64,000 bases of DNA, taken from assembly GCA_037481935.1 (NCBI GenBank), contig JBBFKQ010000001.1, positions 80,741-144,740 of the forward strand, given 5' to 3'. Position numbers and translations under genes: made by a program. How positions within the stretch are numbered: position 1 is the first letter of the stretch; every line of letters begins with the position of its first letter. Under the pieces are notes generated by a model. That model had not been told where the DNA came from, did not search any database, and saw only the letters and a list, made by a program, of their open reading frames with translations. Source of the DNA: Aquificaceae bacterium. Lineage in GTDB: Bacteria; Aquificota; Aquificia; Aquificales; Aquificaceae. Shown piece by piece: positions 15,455-55,348 of this stretch.

Positions 15455-16159
15455 TTAACCTCCCTTAAACCTGAAAGTTATTATGCCTGTCTGGACCGTG
15501 TTTTCCCTTATGGCTTCAAACCTTATACCCCTTACAAACTCCACCATCTTCTGGTCCACCTGGGTTGAACCGCTTTTCTGAATTATCTGAACCCTTGAGA
15601 CCACACCAGAAGGCTCTATCCATACCCTTACTCTAAGGGGGCTGAGGGGTTCATCAGAGCTTATCCTCGGAAGGGGGGGTGTATAAACCGTTGCCCTTCC
15701 ACCACCTGAAAGCCCCACACCTCCAGGTGATACAACCGCCGTTATGCTTCCAATGTCTGCACTCTTTACGCCCTCCCTCTCCACCTCTCTTTCCCTTCCC
15801 CTTACCTTCTGCTCAATCTCCTGAAGCAGTGAAGGCTCTTCCTTTTGAGTGCCTGCTGGCACCTGAATGTCTCCCTTCTCTCTTGATACCTCAACCGGAG
15901 ATGCAATGGCCTTATCTTTTCCTTTTTTAGTAATACCTTCTCCCTCTCTTGGCTTATGAAGAATGCCCTGCCTTCCACCCGCCAACTTTATTTCCTTTGC
16001 AAGTGGCATATCTTCAACATATACCTGTAAGGGAGGCGTTGGAGAGTTCACCTCAATTCTAACAGAGAGATAGAGTGAAAGAAGGGTAAACATCATAAGG
16101 TTCAGAATTATAGATATGCCCCAGTGAAATAATGTTTCTACTTTATCCTCTCTCAGCAT
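15455..16159 (-). CDS. TonB-like energy transducer protein
   Basis: This 234-residue protein has one N-terminal membrane segment (about residues 14-33), a proline- and charge-rich periplasmic linker, and a C-terminal TonB-like domain (about 150-234) with the pattern [19 protein letters not shown] ... VRGIRFEAI. The linker is rich in E/K/R rather than the PK/PE repeats of classical TonB. No exbB/exbD is adjacent; those of the window are at 62632-63409. It lies directly downstream of the exopolysaccharide genes and 4 nt before the ADH synthase gene. A TGCTATACT extended -10 lies 10 nt before the ATG. It may serve another export or import machine. Confidence 0.75.
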
Positions 16160-16201
16160 TATGTATCATAGTATAGCACATAGGCTATATTTTTTGAATG
16201 A

Positions 16202-17677
16202 TTAGAATATATGTCTTAGACCTACCCCGACTTGATAATACTTCCAACCGGCAGCCGTCTGCATTGCATAGTTACCAGCCTCAAAGTCCAGAGCAATCCA
16301 TGTATTCCTGCTAAGCTTGAAACCAACAGAAGCATACCCGCCACCTATAAGATCACTGTTGGTTTTATTGTATCTTTTATAGTTCTGATAACCAATAAAT
16401 GGCTCCAAGTAGACATAAAAATTACCTCTATTGTGCTGTAATGCAAAAAATATATGGTTTGAAATATAGTCTTTTGGGTCAAAATAACCCATTCTTTTAT
16501 GTTTGTCATAATTACTGTATATTAATCTGTAGCCAATCTTAAAGTTTGGATTGGACTGTGTCAACCTATACGCTGGGGATAGTATCATGAAATGGCCTTT
16601 ATTACCATCGGAGAAAAGACGAAGTTGATATGAACCACTGAAGTCAACACTATCATTTATGCGCTGAAAGGTACTTATAGCAAAGGCAGTCATTCTTATC
16701 TTATTTTGTAAGAGCTCTGCAGTATAAGTCATAATGCTGGTGTTTAAGGAGATATTAAGACTACCCCTCCCAGCAAAAATAGATACTCCAGCGCCACCTA
16801 TGAACTTTTCTGATGAGCCTATAGACAATGTGCCAAAAGTGCCAGACAGGAGGGCATTTTCAGATACTCTTTTATTCAGTTCAATTCCGAACTCGTAGGC
16901 TTTCTTATCCCTTGTATTATCCTCGGCCCATATATACCTATAGTAGGGTGATAATCTATAGTCTTCTAACCAGAAAATGCCTCTAAGGGTAAGTGTATCT
17001 ACTCTGTTATCGTCGCTATCTCTGTAATATGTATAGCCAGAACTTACCTGAGGTCCGAACTTCTGTAAATAGGCCTCCTTAGCCTCATCAAGCTCCTTTG
17101 ATTGATATGTATACATTGGCTTTAGCTTCTCAAGAGTATTTTTGGTATCAATCCTTCTATCCAATGCCATATACCCATAAGAAAGAGCAAGTCCGCTGTC
17201 AAAGTCCTTTCTTTCAGCGTATATCCGCTCGTATATTTCTGTAGCCTTATCGGGTCTTCCAGACCAACGAAGGGCATTACCTTTTACAAGAAGGGCATCA
17301 GAATTCTGAGGTTCCTTTGAAAGTATATAATCAAGCTCTTTTATAGCCTCAAAATTCTTCCCTCTCCATGTAAGAACTCTTGCAAGATGCAGTCTTATCT
17401 GTAAATCTTCTGGATACTTTTCTAATAACTCCTTCAGCATCATCTCGGCTTCTTTCAGCATGCCTCCCCACGACACGGATACAGCCATTCTAAATCTTTC
17501 TTCTCTTGATAAATCGCCCATTTGATTCCAGATTTTTGCGTATACCTCAGCCGCTTTTCTATAGTTCCCTTCCCTGTAATATCTGTCTCCTTCTTCCTTC
17601 AACTTAAGAAGCTCTGGTTGTACAGCGTAAACCCCGCATGCAAGAACAAAAGAAGCCACTATAGATATTATTTTCAT
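16202..17677 (-). CDS. TPR plus outer-membrane beta-barrel protein (YaiO/PgaA-like exporter)
   Basis: A signal peptide (about 1-18, ending VYA) is followed by TPR helices (about 25-200: EEGDRYYREGNYRKAAEVYAKI and further repeats). The remaining 290 residues alternate as beta-strands and end in the aromatic GVGLRHIF, typical of outer-membrane barrels of the YaiO family. PgaA, the poly-N-acetylglucosamine exporter, has the same TPR-barrel layout. It follows the deacetylase gene with a 4-bp overlap, so it is probably the outer-membrane exit of the polysaccharide made by the synthase at 20824. The substrate is inferred from context. Confidence 0.82.
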   Translation of the reverse strand: MKIISIVASFVLACGVYAVQPELLKLKEEGDRYYREGNYRKAAEVYAKIWNQMGDLSREERFRMAVSVSWGGMLKEAEMMLKELLEKYPEDLQIRLHLARVLTWRGKNFEAIKELDYILSKEPQNSDALLVKGNALRWSGRPDKATEIYERIYAERKDFDSGLALSYGYMALDRRIDTKNTLEKLKPMYTYQSKELDEAKEAYLQKFGPQVSSGYTYYRDSDDNRVDTLTLRGIFWLEDYRLSPYYRYIWAEDNTRDKKAYEFGIELNKRVSENALLSGTFGTLSIGSSEKFIGGAGVSIFAGRGSLNISLNTSIMTYTAELLQNKIRMTAFAISTFQRINDSVDFSGSYQLRLFSDGNKGHFMILSPAYRLTQSNPNFKIGYRLIYSNYDKHKRMGYFDPKDYISNHIFFALQHNRGNFYVYLEPFIGYQNYKRYNKTNSDLIGGGYASVGFKLSRNTWIALDFEAGNYAMQTAAGWKYYQVGVGLRHIF

Positions 17678-18432
17678 GATCTATCACCTCCAATGTATTG
17701 CGAGAAGGAAACAAGGTCTATTGAATTGTTTATGTTGAGTCTGGGTATAGCCATATCCGTCATTCCAAACAGTCTTTCTTCAGAAGTGAAGAAGTATTTA
17801 AAGCCAAGTTTTCTGAGAACATCCAGATGTCTCTCCGAGTATTGTCCGTATGGCGCAGCAAAAATGTCAGTAGACGTTCCAAGCTCTTTATTTAACTTAT
17901 CTAAAAACTTCATGGAATCTAGCCTGAGCTGTTCCGGAGTGAACCTGTTGACCCAGTTTGTCACATGTATGTCGTAACCATGATATCCCACCCTGACAAG
18001 ACCGGATGATATGAGAAACCTATAATCATCCCAGCTCAATGTAGGTCTTTTACCGTTAAAGTTGTAATAGCTTCCTACATAAGCGCCTATAACGTTTATG
18101 ATTGCCTTAAAACCATAATCTCTGAGAACTGGAAAGGCGTAATCCATGAAAGAAAGATAGCCATCATCAAATGTAAGCATAAATAACTTTCTACTTTTAT
18201 CAAATCTGTTGAGCTCTTCAGGAAAAACAGAAATATAGCTGTTCTGATACAGGTATTCCATATGAGAGTAGAAAAGAGAAGGAGAAACCGTATAACCATC
18301 CTTATAATGGTTTGATATATCATGGTACATTAGTACAGGAATGCTCAGGGCTTCGAAAGCTGGGGCTGTCCTGATTCTGGTTCCCAGAAAGAGCCAAGAG
18401 GCTGCCGTAAATAGAAAATCTCTTCTTGTCAT
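17674..18432 (-). CDS. Polysaccharide deacetylase (PgaB/IcaB-like)
   Basis: This 252-residue NodB-type carbohydrate esterase removes N-acetyl groups from a GlcNAc-type polymer. The metal and base residues are visible in LTFDDGY (near 95), HGYDIH (metal His pair, near 150) and AAPYGQY (near 192). The HGYDIH spacing matches the PgaB type. The N-terminus MTRRDFLFTAASWLF carries a twin-arginine signal, so the enzyme is probably exported folded by Tat. Overlaps of 4 bp on both sides place it firmly in the exopolysaccharide operon. Confidence 0.88.
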   Translation of the reverse strand: MTRRDFLFTAASWLFLGTRIRTAPAFEALSIPVLMYHDISNHYKDGYTVSPSLFYSHMEYLYQNSYISVFPEELNRFDKSRKLFMLTFDDGYLSFMDYAFPVLRDYGFKAIINVIGAYVGSYYNFNGKRPTLSWDDYRFLISSGLVRVGYHGYDIHVTNWVNRFTPEQLRLDSMKFLDKLNKELGTSTDIFAAPYGQYSERHLDVLRKLGFKYFFTSEERLFGMTDMAIPRLNINNSIDLVSFSQYIGGDRS

Positions 18433-20846
18433 CCTCGACTCCTAATATGTTTCTTGAGTATGTAGTAACTTTTTTTCAGATACTCATGATAGAGGGGGGT
18501 ACTCCAGCTTTCCCAACTATAGGTTTTTATCTTTTCAAAGGACAGGGGGTATGGAAGCATGTCTGTTATGTTATATGGTTTTCTTGTTTCTTCGGCAAGA
18601 TTGAAATTATCTTTCTTTGGTTTGTAAGATAACACAATAAACCGCACTCCATCTGTTTCTAAACTCTTTACTTTACCATCCCACCAAATTATGTTCCTAG
18701 AACTTGGGTCAGAAAAATTTATAAGGCAGTAAGGTATTCTAAGTTCTATGAGATTTCCGTTCACATTAAAATCTGCTAGGCTGTTATAGTCCTTTCTATC
18801 GGGATTGAGGGAACCCATTCTTAGCGGACTTACTGCATGATGCCTCGCTGGATATGTTTTTCTAAGCTCCTTATTAAATCTCCTTCTATTTGTCAAGAAA
18901 TACATGGGTATAAATGCACCCTGCGCGGATTCTACGGACAATGTTTTCCCTGAACCATAGTTGGTAAATCTGTCGTAAGTGTGCTGCACCAGTATTCTAC
19001 TTTTCCCCTTACCACATATATGCATGAGAAACTGAACGCCCATAGGTAAGGTCAACTTCGTATTAAAGGGGAGCAGATATTCGCCCTTGTCTGGACCTGC
19101 AACATTTATTGCTACAATATAACAGGCTTCTAAAAAATCTATCTCACCTGCCGTCTCCAGCGCTAGATAGATAAAGCCTTCATCCCTCTTGACTCTTACA
19201 CCTACTAGTGTTCTTCCTCCATCTCCATCATCTCCAAAGCTGTAGTATCGTATACCCTTTTCCTTAGAATAAAGGGTTTCTGAATTTACCCACTCTCCTA
19301 GATTGCCGGACAGTGTGCATGTCTTACCTGGGTAGCCTGGATACACGGCAACAAGTCCGTAATTTTCCTCGGGATCTCTTATATTAAACCAGAGGGATTT
19401 TCTATCTTTTGGATTATAGTAAGGCTGAAATAACCAGTTAACTTTATACCACTCATCAAACCACGAAAAGATTATGGCGCCTGCCATACCTGCTTTTTTT
19501 ATTTCTTCCAGCTTCTGAATCAGATATCTACCCTGCTGAACTTCATCATGTCCGCCATGATTTAAACCTCCCTGTTGCCAGTGGGCTGACTCCCTGCTGG
19601 TGGGCACGCCAAACTCAGCTATAACCACGGGCTGTCCTTTATGATGAGTTTTAAGTTCTCTTAAATAGTCCAAGTATGGAGTTTCTGATTGAAGATAGTC
19701 ATTAACCATGAAATCGGGATAGTAAGGATAGACATGGTAACTGGAGAAGAAGCAGGTTTCTCCTGTGCATCTTATCTTGCTGGTATCGAGCGTTTCCATA
19801 TCCTCATTCTCCGAACACACATCTGCCACCTCTTGACCCATAGCCTTAAGTTCCTCTTCGTAACTCGATTCTGAATGATGTTCTAATGGGTCAAGCGTAG
19901 GCCAATTTGTTATAGAAACCAAGCTTGTGTGCCCATATACCTCTTGCTGATATGAAAGTATATAATAACACACTTTTACGTTCCAGACCTCAAAAGGTTC
20001 GCCGTTAAGTATGTACAGGAACTTTCCGTAATAGTCCTCCTTCTTTCTCAATCTTTTTTCATTGTATTTATTAACCATGCATGCCTCTGGCTCTCTACCG
20101 AATAAGTATCCTATAAGACATCCAGAAACATCGGCTGTATAAACACCATGCGGTTTTCCATAAGATTCCTTAAGTTCAAGATGTCCATGGACCGCGTCTA
20201 CAACTTCTCTTATATCCTGCAAAACCTTGCCCATAAAATCTCTGTCATCCAAAGCACCCTTTTCAGGTGGCTCATACCATATACCCTGCAAAAGGTAGAG
20301 TTTAATGCCATCTTTATTAAACTCATAAAGCGCTCTGTAAAAGTCTGGATTTTGTAATGTATAAACCCTTATGGTATTTGCACCGAGTTCATAAATAAGT
20401 TTGAACCATCTGAGATAGGTACCCATTTTTATAGGATACTCCCCGGGGAAATAGCCTGGTAGTCCAAGTCCAATGTTAACCCCCAAGATAAAGAAGCTTT
20501 CCCATTTACCTCCCCTCATTATCTGAATATAGTCATCCGCAGTTCTAAAAATTGATTTTTCTCGGAGGCTTACCTTATTCAAACTGGTGATATATTTTTC
20601 AACTATTTCCAGCATCTTTAAGACTTTATCGGAGTTATTAGCTTCAAGGCTTTTGTATAGAGCCCACCTCGCAGTATGCATATCCCCCAGATTATACATT
20701 GCCAGCCCTAACCCGTAATAAGCATCACCTGTTTCCTCCTTATTAGAAGCTTTCTGAAGTGCAAGCCTAAATATGTTTACTGCCTCCTGATTATGACCTT
20801 TTTGTAAGGCTGTGTAGCCCAATTCAAGGAGTTTCTTTAAATTCAT
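18429..20846 (-). CDS. TPR-glycoside hydrolase-like protein of the exopolysaccharide locus
   Basis: The roughly 805-residue protein begins with TPR-like helices (about 1-95), then a TIM-barrel region (about 115-480) with GVNIGLGLPGYFPGEYP, ANTIRVYTL and PVVIAEFGVP, whose Glu resembles the nucleophile of clan-A glycosidases. TNWPTLDPLEHH precedes it. A C-terminal beta-rich region (about 500-805) may bind carbohydrate. No signal peptide is visible, which is odd for a glycosidase acting on an exported polymer. The ATG at 20846 (GGGGAG 9 nt upstream) is preferred over the GTG at 20855. It overlaps the synthase gene by about 23 bp. The exact family was not identified. Confidence 0.72.
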   Translation of the reverse strand: MNLKKLLELGYTALQKGHNQEAVNIFRLALQKASNKEETGDAYYGLGLAMYNLGDMHTARWALYKSLEANNSDKVLKMLEIVEKYITSLNKVSLREKSIFRTADDYIQIMRGGKWESFFILGVNIGLGLPGYFPGEYPIKMGTYLRWFKLIYELGANTIRVYTLQNPDFYRALYEFNKDGIKLYLLQGIWYEPPEKGALDDRDFMGKVLQDIREVVDAVHGHLELKESYGKPHGVYTADVSGCLIGYLFGREPEACMVNKYNEKRLRKKEDYYGKFLYILNGEPFEVWNVKVCYYILSYQQEVYGHTSLVSITNWPTLDPLEHHSESSYEEELKAMGQEVADVCSENEDMETLDTSKIRCTGETCFFSSYHVYPYYPDFMVNDYLQSETPYLDYLRELKTHHKGQPVVIAEFGVPTSRESAHWQQGGLNHGGHDEVQQGRYLIQKLEEIKKAGMAGAIIFSWFDEWYKVNWLFQPYYNPKDRKSLWFNIRDPEENYGLVAVYPGYPGKTCTLSGNLGEWVNSETLYSKEKGIRYYSFGDDGDGGRTLVGVRVKRDEGFIYLALETAGEIDFLEACYIVAINVAGPDKGEYLLPFNTKLTLPMGVQFLMHICGKGKSRILVQHTYDRFTNYGSGKTLSVESAQGAFIPMYFLTNRRRFNKELRKTYPARHHAVSPLRMGSLNPDRKDYNSLADFNVNGNLIELRIPYCLINFSDPSSRNIIWWDGKVKSLETDGVRFIVLSYKPKKDNFNLAEETRKPYNITDMLPYPLSFEKIKTYSWESWSTPLYHEYLKKSYYILKKHIRSRG

Positions 20847-22248
20847 ACACACCACTCCCCTTCTTTTTTACATATTCCCATCTTCTATAGCCCGCAATGT
20901 ACTTTATAGTTGCCTGCAATCTCCAAAAGGAATTTAGTTGCCTGTATCCAAGATTTTGCATGATACCATAAAGTACTAACCTAAAGAGGTGCTTCCATTC
21001 TGGATATCTCCTATATGTCAGCTCTTCCAAGAATACACCGCATACTGAAAGAAAGGAGCCATACACCACTGCAAGCAGGAGGAAAAGCAAGAAAAACTTG
21101 TAACTAATTAAGCCTAATACATAAGCTGATGGCACCATTATATACCCAATCAACTCTATTATTGGACCGAGCACTTCAAAAAGTAAGTAATAGGGGAGAG
21201 CAAACATACCTATTCTCCCATACCTGGGATTAAAAAGCATAAACTTATACTTATATAGAGTTTGAATAAGTCCAAGGTGCCATCTTCTTCTCTGCTTTGC
21301 AAGTGTCCTAGTATCTTCTGGAATTTCCGTCCAACATATTGGGTCTGTAATAAATCCTATATAGTACTTCTCTCCTCTTTCTCTAAAATGCTTATGTAAT
21401 CTCACAACTATTTCCAAGTCCTCAGTAACAGTATCCTTAGAATATCCACCCACTTGAATAAGGGCTCCTTTGTTGAACAGCGAAAAGGCCCCTGATAATA
21501 TCATCGTCTGATTAAGCACATTAAACCCCGAGCGTCCAAGAAGAAAAGCTGTCAAATATTCAACTATCTGAAGATTTGCGATGGGCTTATTGGAGAGGTC
21601 GATTTTTTCAACCTCACCGTCTTTAAGTTTTACACCGTTTAGAACTCTTACTACACCCCCCAAGCCTATCACGGGAACTTCAGACTCTATTACCCTTGAC
21701 ATTAATCTGATTAGAGAGTCTTTTTCTATTATTGAGTCTGCATCTATTGAGCAAATGTAAGGAGCTTTACTCACATTTATTCCGCAATTTAGAGCGTCTG
21801 ACTTACCACCCCGCTCTTTATCAACTACTATAAGATTAGGAATTTCTGGGTTGTAGTAGAAGGCTTTAACTTTTTCTGTTTTTATCAGTTGTCTATAAAC
21901 TAAATCAATTTTTCTAAGATTAAATGCGTTTATAAGATTTATAAGTGTTGCATCTCCTGAACCATCGTTTACTACAATTATTTCATAGTTGGAATAGCTA
22001 ATATTTAATGCACTGTGAACCGTTCTAACTATTACATTTTCTTCATTATATGCAGGTATTATAAGAGATACAGGGGGCATGTCCGTTTTCTGTAATTCCT
22101 TAACAGGGAAAAGCCTTATAATTCTTATATAGTTTAATATAGACACGAAAGCTAAAATAAACAAAAATGTCAGAATAGCATTGTATATGCTATAATAAAT
22201 ACCAACAAAAATATTAAAAGCTATCACAAAAAGGGCTAAATAATACAT
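20824..22248 (-). CDS. Membrane glycosyltransferase family 2 (PgaC/BcsA-like polysaccharide synthase)
   Basis: This 474-residue processive synthase polymerises a nucleotide-sugar and threads the chain through the inner membrane. Two N-terminal membrane segments precede the GT-A domain, with VSLIIPAYNEE (near 62), VVNDGSGD, SIDADS (DxD), TEDLE and the processivity motif QRRRW (near 320). Three or more membrane segments follow. The motif set D,D,D,QxxRW is that of PNAG, hyaluronan and cellulose synthases; neighbouring deacetylase and TPR-barrel genes favour a PNAG-like polymer. It overlaps the HEAT gene by 13 bp. No PgaD-like or PilZ partner is visible. Confidence 0.87.
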   Translation of the reverse strand: MYYLALFVIAFNIFVGIYYSIYNAILTFLFILAFVSILNYIRIIRLFPVKELQKTDMPPVSLIIPAYNEENVIVRTVHSALNISYSNYEIIVVNDGSGDATLINLINAFNLRKIDLVYRQLIKTEKVKAFYYNPEIPNLIVVDKERGGKSDALNCGINVSKAPYICSIDADSIIEKDSLIRLMSRVIESEVPVIGLGGVVRVLNGVKLKDGEVEKIDLSNKPIANLQIVEYLTAFLLGRSGFNVLNQTMILSGAFSLFNKGALIQVGGYSKDTVTEDLEIVVRLHKHFRERGEKYYIGFITDPICWTEIPEDTRTLAKQRRRWHLGLIQTLYKYKFMLFNPRYGRIGMFALPYYLLFEVLGPIIELIGYIMVPSAYVLGLISYKFFLLFLLLAVVYGSFLSVCGVFLEELTYRRYPEWKHLFRLVLYGIMQNLGYRQLNSFWRLQATIKYIAGYRRWEYVKKKGSGVYEFKETP

Positions 22249-23495
22249 AATTTCCTTACCTCCTCAATATCTTCCTGGCTTATGGTATTTGTAAAACCTA
22301 ATTCATGGTATAGAATCTCCATTATTTTAATTGCATAAATTAAATCTTCTGTGTCACACGCTTTTAGGGCCTCCTTAAGCTTCACACCAGCGTTTGATTT
22401 TGATATCGCCTCAGCAATAGCTTGTTTTGCGTATTCATCCTTTGATTCCAATATGGAAAGTATTATATCAAAATTACCCTCCATGCACCTTACCAGCATA
22501 CCTGCAGACGCACTTCTGACTTGCCAATTATCATCGTAAAGAAGCTCCGCAAGCTTCTTTATAACGTATCTATTGCATCTGAAAGATTCAAGAGCCTTAA
22601 CTGCATTTAGCCTAACGTACCATACTGGATGGCTCAGAAAAACATGCACTAAAGTATCTCCCTTTTCTAAATTTCTACCTTTAAACATTGCTATAACCTT
22701 TAAAGCTCTTGAAAGTATTTCAGGATTGTACTTATTTAATAGGTTTAAAATTACATCTAAAGGTATATTATCCTTGTCTTCTGAAGAATATAGCGCATCA
22801 AGAAACGCCATAAGTGCCTGTTCTTCATCATTTAATAATTCAATCAATCTTCCAACTTCGTTCATACTGAGCTTATTAATCATATTGGAAAACAAAACAG
22901 ACATCTCTTTGAAAGAAAGCTTACCCTTTTTGTATTTATCTAGTATGGTGTAAATGACCTCTTCAATCTGATGTATGTTTAAGGAACTTTTTGTTAAATA
23001 GAAAAGCATTCTGTATAGAAATTCCGAATTTTCCTCTTTTCTAATTGTGTCTATTATTTCCTTAAACTTATCTGTAAAACCAAGATTTGTAAGAATTTTA
23101 ACAGCTTCAAGTCTGTTTCTACTGGAACCACTTTTTAACCTGTTTACGTAATACTTGTCTACTTCATACATTCTGGCAATTTTATTTATATATTCTGAAT
23201 TCAAATCATACAATTCAATAAGAATATCTATAAAGGCTCTTCCTCTCAGAGAATTGAGTTTCAATGAGGTCCTATCCAAATCTTTTATATGCTCTATATT
23301 CCCCGTTTCTATCACGATGTTGTAAATCTTATTACGATAATAAGACTTCAATTGGTCTATTTTTCTGTAGACAATAGAATTTTTAACTCTTCGTATTATA
23401 GAAATAGTCAACAGAAGAGTAGAAACCAGAAGTATAGAGATTATGATTGAGACTATTATTAGAATAGTTAATCTACTCTCTAATAGCTCAATCAT
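22236..23495 (-). CDS. Membrane-anchored HEAT-repeat protein of the exopolysaccharide locus
   Basis: One N-terminal membrane segment (about 9-33) is followed by nearly 390 residues of helical repeats. HEAT-type units are clearest in the second half, for example HPVWYVRLNAVKALES and DDNWQVRSASAGMLV. It is the first gene of the operon and overlaps the synthase by 13 bp. The repeat domain probably faces the cytoplasm and may scaffold or regulate the synthase; that is inference. The coding DNA is visibly AT-rich compared with the flanking housekeeping genes. It starts at the ATG at 23495 with no strong ribosome-binding site. Confidence 0.78.
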   Translation of the reverse strand: MIELLESRLTILIIVSIIISILLVSTLLLTISIIRRVKNSIVYRKIDQLKSYYRNKIYNIVIETGNIEHIKDLDRTSLKLNSLRGRAFIDILIELYDLNSEYINKIARMYEVDKYYVNRLKSGSSRNRLEAVKILTNLGFTDKFKEIIDTIRKEENSEFLYRMLFYLTKSSLNIHQIEEVIYTILDKYKKGKLSFKEMSVLFSNMINKLSMNEVGRLIELLNDEEQALMAFLDALYSSEDKDNIPLDVILNLLNKYNPEILSRALKVIAMFKGRNLEKGDTLVHVFLSHPVWYVRLNAVKALESFRCNRYVIKKLAELLYDDNWQVRSASAGMLVRCMEGNFDIILSILESKDEYAKQAIAEAISKSNAGVKLKEALKACDTEDLIYAIKIMEILYHELGFTNTISQEDIEEVRKLCII

Positions 23496-23553
23496 GATGG
23501 CTTTAATTTTAAATTCTTTGTTGTTCCTGTGCGTGAAGTATTTGTGAAAATAT

Positions 23554-23559
23554 TATAAT
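23554..23559 (+). promoter_or_regulatory. -10 box of gpsA
   Basis: TATAAT lies 7 nt before the gpsA ATG at 23567 and there is no Shine-Dalgarno sequence. It predicts a leaderless transcript. No good -35 is seen. Confidence 0.45.
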
Positions 23560-23566
23560 TAGCATT

Positions 23567-24547
23567 ATGAACTTTTCCATTCTTGGCGGTGGCCGGTGGG
23601 GGGTTGCTCTTGCCATTCATCTCGGTAAACTGGGGCACAGCATCATGGTGTTTGACAGGAAAGAGGAAACGGTGAGAACTATTGAGGAAGGAAAGCATCC
23701 CTACATGGAGGGCGTCAGGCTCAGGAACGTGGGAGCCACTCAGGACCTTGAGGATGCACTTGCCTTTTCAGATTATGTAATAATAGCCCTTCCAGTCCAG
23801 GCCATAAGGGAGGTGTTAGCCCAAAAACCTCTGAGGGGTAAGAGGGTTGTCTCCGCTTCCAAGGGACTTGAGGTGGGCACTGAAAAGAGAGTTTCCGAGC
23901 TTCTTCTTGAGCTTGAACCCTCTCTGAAGGTCTTTTGTCTGTCTGGTCCATCCTTTGCCAGCGAGGTTTCAAAAGGGCTTCCCACAGCCCTTGTGCTCGC
24001 AGGTGAAGAACTTGAGGAAATGGAGAAGATAAGAAACTGGATAAGCTCTGAGAACTTCAGGGTTTATCTTTCCACAGACCTTGTGGGTGTTGAGCTTGGT
24101 GGTGCCCTGAAAAATGTTATCGCCATTGCCTGCGGTATATCTGATGGTCTTGGTCTGGGAGAGAATGCAAGGGCTTCCCTTATGACCAGAGGGCTTGCAG
24201 AGATGGTTAGGATTGGTGTTTCTCTTGGTGCAAGAAAGGATACCTTCTACGGACTCTCTGGCATGGGGGATTTATTTCTTACCGCCAGTTCTGCACAGTC
24301 AAGGAACAGAACCTTTGGCTATCTTCTAGGTCAGGGCCTTCCTCTGGAAGAAGCCCTCAAAAGGCTCAATCAAACAGTGGAAGGTATACATACCGTAAGA
24401 GCTGTTCAGAGGCTGGCAATGGATAGGAAAATACATACCCCTATAAACAATGCGGTTTACAGGGTTGTGGTTGAGGGTTATCCTCCAAAGGATGTGGCTC
24501 TTGAGCTTCTGAAAAGACCTCCTCAGAGCCCTTTTGAGATGATATGA
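23567..24547 (+). CDS. gpsA: Glycerol-3-phosphate dehydrogenase [NAD(P)+]
   Basis: The enzyme reduces dihydroxyacetone phosphate to sn-glycerol 3-phosphate for phospholipid synthesis. The Rossmann motif ILGGGRWGVALA is at residues 5-16, followed by SKGLE, LSGPSFASEV, the catalytic Lys region GGALKNVIAIA (near 182) and GLSGMGDL. Length 326 fits. It is the only plus-strand gene in its neighbourhood besides the permease at 24672, and is transcribed away from the exopolysaccharide operon. Confidence 0.96.
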   Translation: MNFSILGGGRWGVALAIHLGKLGHSIMVFDRKEETVRTIEEGKHPYMEGVRLRNVGATQDLEDALAFSDYVIIALPVQAIREVLAQKPLRGKRVVSASKGLEVGTEKRVSELLLELEPSLKVFCLSGPSFASEVSKGLPTALVLAGEELEEMEKIRNWISSENFRVYLSTDLVGVELGGALKNVIAIACGISDGLGLGENARASLMTRGLAEMVRIGVSLGARKDTFYGLSGMGDLFLTASSAQSRNRTFGYLLGQGLPLEEALKRLNQTVEGIHTVRAVQRLAMDRKIHTPINNAVYRVVVEGYPPKDVALELLKRPPQSPFEMI

Positions 24548-43029: not shown

Positions 43030-43458
43030 TTATAACCTACCGGAAAGCTCTCTCATCTTCTGATTTAGTTTTTCATCAAAGGATAAAACCTCTATCCCAT
43101 TATCAAGAGCATACAGAATAATTAGCCAGTCGTTGTAGTTGAGATCTGGGAAATCCAGAATGCTATCCACTACCCTCGGGTGATAGTTCTGTGACGGATT
43201 CTCTTTTATAAGCAGGGCATCCATATATTTCATAGCTTGGAGGGCTTTTTTGCAGTCATAACCTCTTTCTCTACATCTTCTCGCAATAACAGAATAAGCC
43301 TCTCCAAGCACCGGTATAAGAATTGAAAGTTCCTTATTTTCAGAAAGGGAAAGGAGGGCATCTTTTGCCCTCCCATGATGGGCATCTCTCTGGTCTATGA
43401 AAGCAACCAGCACATTTGCGTCAAGAAGAATAGAGTTTCTTCTCCTCCTCAACCGCAT
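43030..43458 (-). CDS. PIN-domain ribonuclease (VapC-like toxin)
   Basis: The roughly 142-residue protein begins its fold with SILLDANVLVAFID (first acidic residue of the PIN site), has GEAYSVIARR with the second acid, and ends in NDWLIILYALDNGIEVLSFDEKL with the last acids. PIN toxins cleave tRNA or rRNA. The frame opens at a TTG at 43467; the ATG at 43458 is used here. It overlaps the upstream 114-residue gene, the usual toxin-antitoxin arrangement. Confidence 0.82.
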   Translation of the reverse strand: MRLRRRRNSILLDANVLVAFIDQRDAHHGRAKDALLSLSENKELSILIPVLGEAYSVIARRCRERGYDCKKALQAMKYMDALLIKENPSQNYHPRVVDSILDFPDLNYNDWLIILYALDNGIEVLSFDEKLNQKMRELSGRL

Positions 43459-43765
43459 CGCCTCCAATGCTTAAACTTCCCGCCAGCATCCTCAGAACGT
43501 CTGATTTTCTCATAACAGGTATATCAAACTTTCTCAGTATGTCCACCGCATACTTGGTGGTAATGTCCTGCAGAGTGAGCCCTGTACCCTTTGAAGTGAG
43601 CACGTCCTCCACAAGTCTCTTGGCTGGAACCAGCCTACCTTCTACCAGGGCAAAATAATCTGTTCCCTTATAGATTTCATATTCCTTCTGAGCAGACCTT
43701 ATTATGTCTTCGTAGCTTATTTCAACTGTCTTACCTCTTATTCTAAAAATTTCACTGACTTTCAT
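43421..43765 (-). CDS. Putative antitoxin paired with the PIN protein
   Basis: This 114-residue acidic-basic protein is not an AbrB, RHH or Phd-type antitoxin that I can recognise. It starts KVSEIFRIRGKTVEISYEDI and has a helical C-terminal half (VDILRKFDIPVMRKSDVLRMLAG), ending in an acidic tail EEEKKLYSS, which could wrap the toxin. It overlaps the PIN gene by about 38 bp and follows the 90-residue gene by one base, so the three form one transcript. The antitoxin role is inferred from context only. Confidence 0.6.
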   Translation of the reverse strand: MKVSEIFRIRGKTVEISYEDIIRSAQKEYEIYKGTDYFALVEGRLVPAKRLVEDVLTSKGTGLTLQDITTKYAVDILRKFDIPVMRKSDVLRMLAGSLSIGGDAVEEEKKLYSS

Positions 43766-52565: not shown

Positions 52566-54404
52566 ATGGACTACAGACCGCAAGAGATAGAAGCCAAATG
52601 GCAGAAGATATGGGAAGACATGAAGACCTTTGCATCAAAAGAGGAAGGAAACAAATCCTACGTGCTTGAGATGTTTCCCTATCCATCAGGCAGGATTCAC
52701 ATGGGGCATGTGAGAAATTACACCATTGGGGATGCTATTGCACGCTTTCTGAGGTTCAGGGGATATTCTGTCCTCCATCCCATGGGCTGGGATGCCTTTG
52801 GACTACCTGCAGAGAACGCCGCCATAAAGCATGGCTTTCATCCTGCAAACTGGACATACCAGAACATAGCCTACATGAAAAAGCAGCTCAAAAGCCTTGG
52901 CTTTTCCTACGACTGGAGCAGGGAAATCGCCACCTGCAGTCCTGAATATTATCGCTGGAACCAGTGGCTCTTTTTGAAGTTTTACGAGCATGGGCTCGCC
53001 TACAGAAAGTCTGCAGAGGTAAACTGGTGTCCCAACGATGAGACGGTGCTTGCTAACGAGCAGGTAGTTGATGGAAGGTGCTGGAGGTGTGGCACTCCCA
53101 TAGTGAGAAGAGAGGTGCCCTCCTGGTATCTGAAGATTACCGCCTATGCGGAGAGGCTTTTAGAGGACCTAAAAGAGCTTGAGGGTAGGTGGCCCGAACG
53201 GGTGATAGCCCAGCAGAGGAACTGGATAGGAAGGTCTGAAGGAGCAGTGCTCAAGTTTTTCGTGGAAGACATCCCCATAGAGGTCTTTACCACAAGACCA
53301 GATACGGTTTTTGGTGCAACCTTTGTAGTGCTGGCTCCCGAACATCCTCTGACCCTTGAGCTGGCAAAGAAGTCTGAAGACTACCAGAGGGTGAGAGCCT
53401 TTGTGGAAAGGATGAAGCAGAAGTCCACCAGGGAGAGGGGAATTGAAGAAGAAAAGGAAGGTGTGCCACTGGGCGTGTATGCAACAAACCCGGCCACAGG
53501 GGAGAAAATACCCGTCTGGACCGCCAACTACGTGCTATACGAATACGGCACTGGCGCCATAATGTGTGTGCCAGCCCACGACCAGAGGGACTACGAGTTT
53601 GCGGTCAAATACGGACTACCAATCAGGCACGTGATAAAGCCCAGGGAAGGAGACCTCCCGGAAGGCAGAGCCTACGAAGAACCGGGAGTGCTCATAAACT
53701 CAGGACAGTTTACGGGCATGGACTCTCTGGACGCAAAGAAAGCCATCACCCAGTGGCTAAAAGAGAGGGGTCTTGGAGAATTCAGGATTACCTACAGGCT
53801 CAGAGACTGGAACATATCTCGTCAGAGATACTGGGGCACTCCCATACCCATAGTCTACTGCGAAAACTGTGGAACTGTGCCTGTGCCAGAAGACCAGCTT
53901 CCGGTGCTTCTGCCAGAAAGGGTGGAGATAACAGGACATGGGAACCCTCTTGAGAAGGTGCCAGAGTTTGTCAATACCATCTGCCCGAAGTGCGGAAGAC
54001 CTGCAAGGAGAGAAACGGACACCATGGACACCTTCTTTGACTCAAGCTGGTATTTCCTCAGGTTCTGCGACCCAGTAAATTCAGAAAAGCCCTTCGCACC
54101 GGAGAAGGCCGAGTTCTGGATGCCTGTAGACCTCTACATTGGTGGTATAGAGCATGCGGTCCTTCACCTTCTTTACGCACGCTTTTTCCAGAAGTTTCTG
54201 TATGACCTTGGACTGGTAAAGGACAAAGAGCCTTTTCTTAGACTGGTCACTCAGGGCATGGTGCTGAAAAGGTGGGTGAGCGTGGAGAGGTTTCTTGAAC
54301 ATCTGAGCAGAAAATACGGCGTCGATTCCGCTGAAGACATTGAACTGGAAGAGCTTGTAAAACTCATAAAGATTGACATGGGTAAGGGTAACTTTCAGAG
54401 ATGA
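52566..54404 (+). CDS. leuS: Leucyl-tRNA synthetase alpha subunit (split LeuRS)
   Basis: This is the N-terminal half of class I LeuRS. It has the HIGH-type motif [13 protein letters not shown] (about 40-52), [17 protein letters not shown], the zinc region [23 protein letters not shown] (residues beyond 150) and the editing domain with [13 protein letters not shown] and [15 protein letters not shown]. The chain ends at 612 residues after VTQGMVLK and an LeuRS-insertion-like tail. The KMSKS loop and the anticodon domain are absent, and the next gene is unrelated and on the other strand. This matches the alpha subunit of the split Aquifex enzyme; the beta subunit must be elsewhere. Confidence 0.95.
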
Positions 54405-55348
54405 AGCCCTGTGTATCCCTCCCTTTTAACAGAAGCCACAAGGAGAACAATTGAAGCAAAAAGGGCACATAGCTGAAAAGACCAGAAGCTCATGAACTTC
54501 AGATAAGCAAAAGGCGAACCCCCATACAGGAGTAGCAGACTTGAAAAATTATCCAGAAAGGAGAAAAGAAAAACAAAAAGGCCAAGCGTAATACTTTTTT
54601 TCCTGTCAACACCCGCAAAAGGTAGCAGATGAATCAGAGCAAGAGAGTAAAGGGCCATAGCCAGAATATGGGGGTAGAAAACCTTGAAAACACCCTCAAA
54701 GCTTTTGGGCTTTAGAAAAAGCTCCGGATTGCCCAAGAAGTAATCTCTTATTCCCTGAACTCCAAAACCCATCTTTGCGTGAAAGTTCACAAAGTTAGAA
54801 AGAATAAAAAAAATGGAAAAAAAGGAAAAAAGCAGGCTAAGGACTTTTAACATAGAGACCTTTGGAGGTTTCATGTTACCAAAAGATAGCTTCCATCCTG
54901 TGTATATCAGCATTATTGCTAGTAGAATTTGATAGAGCACAAAAAAGAAAAGCTTTAACCATACAACCCAGAAAGCATTCAGTAGTAATATTAAGAAGTC
55001 TACAGAAAGGTAAGAAAGAGCAGAAATACTGACCAGCAACACCAGAAGTCTTTTAAAAGCGCTGTTTGAATTAAAAAGGGAAAAGACAGAAGAAAGCGTC
55101 AGTATTATAAAGCCATGAAGAAACACACCCACATGGAAGTCTTCAGAAATCTGAGCTAGAGAAACCCTTTCAGGAAACTCAGGGTCCATGAAGAAGTATT
55201 TCACCAGGCTGTTGTAAGAAAAGCCATATTTGGAGTAAAAGTGAAGCCAGGAAGCCAGCCAGAAAAGAGTTGTAAAAAGGAGAAAAAAGATAACCGCATA
55301 GTATAGAGGTTTATTCCTTCTTATGTCTGCGGATACAAAAAATCTCAC
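54395..55348 (-). CDS. Multi-helix membrane protein with a two-fold internal repeat
   Basis: The 317-residue protein has about eight hydrophobic segments and is not a recognised family. Two halves resemble each other: [21 protein letters not shown] (near 37-57) matches [21 protein letters not shown] (near 188-208), each followed by a helix carrying His ([25 protein letters not shown]). The conserved His, Gly and Asn/Asp-Pro-Glu positions suggest haem b or other cofactor binding in the membrane. It is coupled by a 4-bp overlap to the FMN-binding protein, so a membrane electron-transfer unit is plausible. Confidence 0.7.

Follow-up and report, generated by a model that had tools for sequence, protein, structure and literature searches.

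Among the closest described relatives of the locus reported here are the pgaABCD operons of Escherichia coli and Bordetella, which combine a glycosyltransferase family 2 (GT2) synthase, a carbohydrate esterase family 4 (CE4) deacetylase acting together with a glycosidase, and an exporter composed of tetratricopeptide repeats (TPR) and a 16-strand barrel. The two enzymatic activities are joined in PgaB, whose GH153 domain cleaves only deacetylated poly-GlcNAc (PNAG) (PMC5933820), and the TPR of PgaA is described as binding the polymer and modulating PgaB (PMC9384988). In staphylococcal icaADBC, as in our locus, the CE4 deacetylase has a single domain (IcaB-type), and the synthase IcaA is a related GT2; the Pel systems, including the Gram-positive pelDEA(DA)FG (PMC7112168), also direct a deacetylase and a hydrolase to an N-acetylhexosamine (HexNAc) polymer. 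NfrAB of E. coli is likewise a GT2-type exopolysaccharide synthase system, and is under cyclic di-GMP control (PMC8669469). We have analyzed a five-gene operon of an Aquificaceae bacterium, located at 16202–23495 of a 64,000-nucleotide stretch of DNA (the window; contig JBBFKQ010000001.1, positions 80,741 to 144,740). The reading that we favour, with some reserve, is that of a transferred synthase-dependent exopolysaccharide operon with a core of HEAT-repeat protein, GT2 synthase and clan GH-A glycosidase, in which a split analogue of PgaB, its glycosidase being exported by hitchhiking on the twin-arginine translocation (Tat) pathway, acts on a probable HexNAc polymer.

The five open reading frames all lie on the minus strand and overlap successively by 13, 23 (ATG start), 4 and 4 bp, as the initial annotation had noted. 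The first (22236–23495) encodes a HEAT-repeat protein of 419 residues matching PF13646 (E 5.6e-19), followed by a GT2 polysaccharide synthase of 474 residues (20824–22248) which matches PF00535 (9.8e-23) and PF13641 and presents the processive motifs DAD169 (DxD), TED275 and QRRRW319 expected in synthase-dependent exopolysaccharide systems. Next comes an 805-residue protein composed of TPR and a glycosidase-like TIM barrel (18429–20846), and then an IcaB-type CE4 polysaccharide N-deacetylase of 252 residues (17674–18432). The latter matches PF01522 (E 5e-19, 68.9 bits against a cut-off of 23.1) and keeps the metal triad when aligned to 4wcj (TFDDG and HGYDIH, the latter being HxxxxH). The last product (16202–17677) is an outer-membrane exporter of 491 residues with a signal peptide, periplasmic TPR at about residues 20–207 and a 16-strand barrel at 210–490: in its AlphaFold2 model (pLDDT 93.4) a helical TPR part extends to residue 207 and is followed by 16 strands, and the top Foldseek matches are BcsC, PelB and PgaA (4y25, TMt 0.80, rmsd 3.6). 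TPR repeats were detected by the Pfam scan in two of the five proteins. The export line of synthase, deacetylase and TPR barrel suggested by the initial annotation is supported, and we consider it highly probable that the block is an exopolysaccharide operon. A scan for promoters and terminators returned sites no more numerous than in shuffled sequences.

The order of functions is that of pga and the best NCBIfam models are PgaC_IcaA (TIGR03937, E 1.4e-37) for the synthase and PgaB (2.1e-25) for the deacetylase, as would be expected from a degenerate but otherwise ordinary Gram-negative PNAG operon. However, the scores remain far below the model cut-offs for the synthase (129.7 against 422.3 bits), the deacetylase (89 against 322) and the exporter (42.9 against 366.65 for TIGR03939), neither PgaD (PF13994) nor the GHL13/GH153 domain (PF14883) has a match in the whole genome, and the partner genes are conserved with each other across phyla. 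We have thus rejected an ordinary pga operon, which we hold to be very unlikely. The earlier PNAG-like description is right in that the locus works like pga and that PgaD is missing, but the operon itself is not pga: the exporter resembles PgaA in fold and not in family score, and the PgaB-like deacetylase consists of the CE4 half only, the glycosidase half of PgaB being absent from the same protein. Further differences set the operon apart from its relatives. In respect to pga, a HEAT gene occupies the place of PgaD in the operon, and the deacetylase and glycosidase are separate proteins, the latter belonging to an unrelated fold family and having no export signal. In respect to ica, neither icaC nor icaD was seen in the operon, and a diderm exporter, a HEAT protein and a glycosidase are added; in respect to Pel, the synthase is different, PelD, PelE and PelG are lacking and the models used identify no Pel component among the five genes. 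NfrAB is not known to include a HEAT protein, a CE4 deacetylase or an enzyme of clan GH-A. A link to the stalk genes of Zetaproteobacteria (PMC8250860) was also considered and rejected, as the N-terminal domain of the synthase there is EpsE-like and the paper yielded no mention of a HEAT or deacetylase partner.

The HEAT protein of the window, like its homologues, has a single N-terminal transmembrane helix, and since positive charge follows this helix in nearly all homologues, the HEAT domain is predicted to lie in the cytosol beside the synthase. The protein is a likely partner of the synthase, which it would bind and support or regulate in the place of PgaD.

The initial annotation had proposed that the block was acquired by transfer, on account of its AT-richness. 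The composition agrees with this: the GC content of the five genes is 0.32–0.40 against 0.49 in the other genes of the window, and they have the lowest GC at third codon positions (GC3) among the 58 window genes (0.31–0.39 against a mean of 0.535), although codon usage departs to a smaller degree (z −0.9 to −3.2). In the three closest relatives of the same genus the two genes that border the block, tonB-like and gpsA, are direct neighbours with 26 bp between them. This ancestral spacer is recognisable on the tonB side of the window, where it ends at 16181, and about 7.4 kb of new sequence (16182–23565, ends approximate) separates it from the gpsA start at 23567. Also, a search of 135 other genomes of the phylum for relatives of the glycosidase retrieved none beyond chance TPR matches. 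Given this absence and the empty site in the three relatives, we are nearly certain that the operon was acquired by transfer at one clean insertion point. A quick tree of 67 glycosidase sequences with SH-aLRT support places the window sequence within a 7-member clade (SH-aLRT 100), which includes Thermodesulfovibrio and a Thermodesulfobacteriota metagenome-assembled genome and is itself nested in an 18-member clade (SH-aLRT 100) of five-gene loci; this nesting suggests that the donor was probably a Nitrospirota or Desulfobacterota-like bacterium. An operon ancestral to the phylum and lost from nearly all lineages has nothing in its favour except being conceivable, and is made extremely improbable by the 135 genomes without the glycosidase, the clean empty site, the low GC and GC3 and the nesting among Nitrospirota and Thermodesulfobacteriota sequences. 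The clean insertion means that a thermophile gained a whole surface-polymer pathway in one step.

In respect to the vehicle, neither a tRNA in the vicinity of the block nor a mobile-element gene in the reading frames bordering it was found, and an island borne by a mobile element or a tRNA was accordingly rejected. A 9-bp direct repeat, AGCATTATG, occurs near both ends (window ~16155–16163 and 23560–23568) and may be due to chance; we do not regard it as a target-site duplication, since its left copy is situated to the tonB side of the ancestral spacer. The neighbouring fabI gene encodes a protein very similar to PDB 2p91 (E 3e-155), the FabI of Aquifex aeolicus, and the host is accordingly taken to belong to Aquificota.

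Contrary to the initial annotation, which viewed the HEAT protein and the TPR-glycosidase as unusual additions to the operon, the two turn out to be regular companions of the synthase. Searching GTDB contigs with the glycosidase alignment yielded at least 549 confirmed relatives, from which 80 loci were kept. HEAT, GT2 and glycosidase genes occur together in 47 of the 56 loci with 5 kb or more of flank at each end; of the 47 loci holding both HEAT and GT2, 45 have the two as neighbours. The trio spans Bacillota, Gemmatimonadota, Acidobacteriota, Myxococcota, Nitrospirota and haloarchaea, and is also found on a Deinococcus plasmid (Deinococcota); no HEAT gene was detected in some loci of Delongbacteria and Cloacimonadota type. 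Since the HEAT protein and the glycosidase co-occur with GT2 across phyla, comparison of the loci indicates that the trio is the conserved core of a system of its own, which is widespread. Variation among lineages concerns the other two genes: the deacetylase is optional, and the outer-membrane TPR barrel is present in diderms and missing in Bacillota loci. The exact five-gene set was found in other phyla, namely in Nitrospirota and Desulfobacterota-type genomes.

No description of a HEAT-GT2-glycosidase locus was found in the open literature in searches combining HEAT, glycosyltransferase and exopolysaccharide, PgaB and HEAT, or Thermocrinis and exopolysaccharide, and HEAT proteins receive no mention in an operon survey of 2020 (PMC7112194); the family is widespread and apparently undescribed. 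What it offers is an exopolysaccharide system extending over many bacterial phyla and haloarchaea with parts that can be named and tested, namely a HEAT partner replacing PgaD, a clan GH-A enzyme beyond current Pfam and an exporter of the PgaA/BcsC/PelB fold. We give an even chance to the broader proposition that these loci constitute an unrecognised pan-prokaryotic class of exopolysaccharide systems, occurring in hundreds of species, archaea among them, and that in one of its branches (Nitrospirota, Desulfobacterota-type genomes and this Aquificota) the glycosidase lost its signal and hitchhikes on a Tat deacetylase as a preformed split PgaB.

The gene neighbourhoods of the family are varied. 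Genes for receiver-domain proteins lie within 300 bp in 36 loci from all groups, and in Bacillota diguanylate cyclase genes lie within the same distance in 13 loci; the window operon has neither type of regulator, and its genome has 11 GGDEF matches. In the haloarchaeal loci L033, L057 and L082 (Halovivax, Salinadaptatus and Halorubrum) the glycosidase looks like a Tat lipoprotein (RR...GC) and GT2 lies in its neighbourhood, while HEAT is present in two of the three and glmS in two.

The catalytic part of the 805-residue protein matched no Pfam or NCBIfam family, and the earlier identification as a TPR-glycosidase is upheld by the TPR and by the fold. In the model of this protein (pLDDT 90.3), Foldseek ranks GH157 first and GH2 next, both of clan GH-A, and the predicted structure has the TIM barrel of this clan, with two conserved glutamates where strands 4 and 7 end. 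These candidate catalytic residues, Glu252 and Glu411, are invariant in an alignment of 41 relatives, and the candidate nucleophile Glu411 aligns with E224 of LaGH157 (PDB 9g5g), the residue mutated in 9g4n. The relationship is nevertheless distant: the profile match to the GH157 structure 9fz9 is weak (E 0.055), identity is only 13–15%, and the window enzyme has additional TPR and C-terminal β domains.

Several variants of the enzyme were observed among the relatives. Two Bacillota loci hold two tandem homologues before HEAT-GT2 (L005:7851–13161 and L070:9920–15281), and the second glycosidase of L005 has a long N-terminal extension and retains the equivalent of Glu411 while that of Glu252 is gone (GYLFDPD). 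The homologue on a Planococcus maritimus plasmid (L006:5827–7896) has neither candidate catalytic glutamate and adjoins CotH, polyphosphate polymerase and DUF4956 genes, an accessory set of Gram-positive pel loci which in Planococcus also adjoins the HEAT-GT2-glycosidase trio. Signal-bearing glycosidases of about 1360 residues (L130:4821–8885, L131:621–4733 and L164:7004–11071) carry some 450 extra C-terminal residues, for which there is no Pfam match in L130, the one scanned. Homologues of about 1080 residues in L031 (8873–12118) and similar Bacillota loci have an N-terminal region of about 330 residues with the motif DKTVPDxxYREHxGL, again with no Pfam match in the one scanned.

The window glycosidase has no signal peptide or transmembrane segment, and this is a property of its clade. 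The signal is absent from all 18 members of the five-gene clade (the window, L007–L009, L125–L129, L155–L161, L163 and L162, the last cut by a contig end and a few others cut at one end), and from 0 of 47 other relatives, which are equipped with an anchor or a signal peptide, those of haloarchaea with a Tat-lipoprotein signal. A hidden signal due to a wrong start was rejected in most cases: the in-frame open frames are mostly 794–816 residues long and begin only a few codons before the TPR, leaving little or no room for a signal. The linked deacetylase, on the other hand, has a twin-arginine motif at its start in 17 of 17 five-gene loci, and among the Nitrospirota deacetylases best matching that of the window the motif is N-terminal in 6 of 6 linked and 0 of 24 unlinked proteins, four RR strings in unlinked ones being far upstream in over-extended frames and judged spurious by eye. 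The window deacetylase begins with MTRRDFLFTAASWLFLG, which contains an (S/T)RRxFLK-like motif (MTRRDFLF) and a hydrophobic stretch as in Tat substrates, and the host as well as 17 of 17 five-gene genomes tested possess TatC, a necessary but weak condition. In the sister loci L130, L131 and L164 no linked deacetylase gene was found and the glycosidase keeps its own signal, and L029 and L056 encode a single exported protein in which the glycosidase is fused to the CE4 deacetylase.

This pattern points to co-export of the glycosidase with the deacetylase by Tat hitchhiking, a proposal for which we consider the balance to be even or to lean slightly in favour. A physical pair makes functional sense because PgaB joins both activities and its glycosidase domain requires the polymer to be deacetylated (PMC5933820). 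Redox complexes are the established case of hitchhiking by signal-less partners: in E. coli PaoABC (PMC4273604) and in hydrogenases (PMC10924467), as in the window pair, a signal-less partner is encoded beside a twin-arginine partner, whereas both proteins of the window pair are predicted to act on glycans and to have no redox cofactor. If true, Tat may carry pre-assembled, cofactor-free glycan-modifying complexes, and hitchhiking would have a wider use than is now known. The absence of signal peptide or transmembrane segment in 18 of 18 members, and the overlap or abutment of the glycosidase gene with GT2, would also suit an enzyme that stays in the cytoplasm, binds the synthase or the HEAT protein through its TPR, and trims or releases stalled chains or sets chain length. 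This would, however, place the enzyme away from a polymer that is outside, since GT2 extrudes the chain, and would leave without explanation the Tat signal that only linked deacetylases gained or kept. Moreover, all 47 other relatives tested have an export signal, exported relatives (L004, L130) already possess an N-terminal TPR, and the glycosidase-CE4 fusions are exported; a cytoplasmic role is therefore unlikely, though not negligible.

Under the hitchhiking proposal, the GT2 enzyme would polymerise a UDP-sugar and extrude the chain across the inner membrane, the most likely substrate being UDP-GlcNAc or some other HexNAc. In the periplasm the Tat-exported deacetylase would partly de-N-acetylate the chain and the TPR-glycosidase, having most likely crossed the membrane bound to it, would trim it, both forming a split analogue of the two-domain PgaB, before exit through the TPR/16-strand barrel. 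A polymer of HexNAc type seems likely from the gene content, the deacetylase being one of the indications. An amino-sugar precursor is suggested by glmS, which adjoins the trio in other genomes: in five Paenibacillus loci only 35–43 bp separate it from the HEAT gene, in Brevibacillus and Gracilibacillus a few genes intervene, and in two haloarchaea the distance is 1.4–1.5 kb. A cellulose-like or β-1,3-glucan polymer, on which the GH157-like barrel would act and from which the deacetylase would remove O-acetyl groups, is suggested by the closest solved fold of the glycosidase, GH157 with laminaribiose, by the occurrence of glucan synthases within GT2 and by cellulose BcsC being the best match of the exporter. 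Besides the adjacency of glmS in several lineages, the annotation of the structural relatives of the deacetylase in the PDB, mostly as poly-GlcNAc (PNAG) or polysaccharide deacetylases, the PgaC/IcaA model score of the synthase, which is far above that of CelA, and the low identity to GH157 all argue against it, and we regard a glucan as improbable, though to be reckoned with. A role in biofilms or streamers at high temperature is possible, with a probability somewhat below even.

Some points weigh against the reading we favour. The adjacency of glmS lies outside the five-gene clade, and the polymer may differ between lineages, as Brevibacillus loci hold a UDP-ManNAc dehydrogenase-like gene. 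The Tat hitchhikers named in PMC10924467 and PMC4273604 are redox enzyme subunits. Finally, because the leaderless glycosidases form a single clade in the tree, the signal pattern reflects one event that was then retained and not many independent ones, and Fisher p-values overstate it.

The dehydrogenase gene was observed near the trio in L048 (15568–16926), L046, L066 and L074 (Brevibacillus and Gracilibacillus); it encodes a nucleotide-sugar dehydrogenase whose closest match is UDP-ManNAc dehydrogenase, a hint that another sugar may be used in these loci. Elsewhere in the window, a 317-residue membrane-like reading frame at 54395–55348 has a GC content of 0.389 and no Pfam match, and at 43030–43765 a low-GC PIN-domain gene with a small upstream partner gene looks like a toxin-antitoxin pair of the VapBC type.

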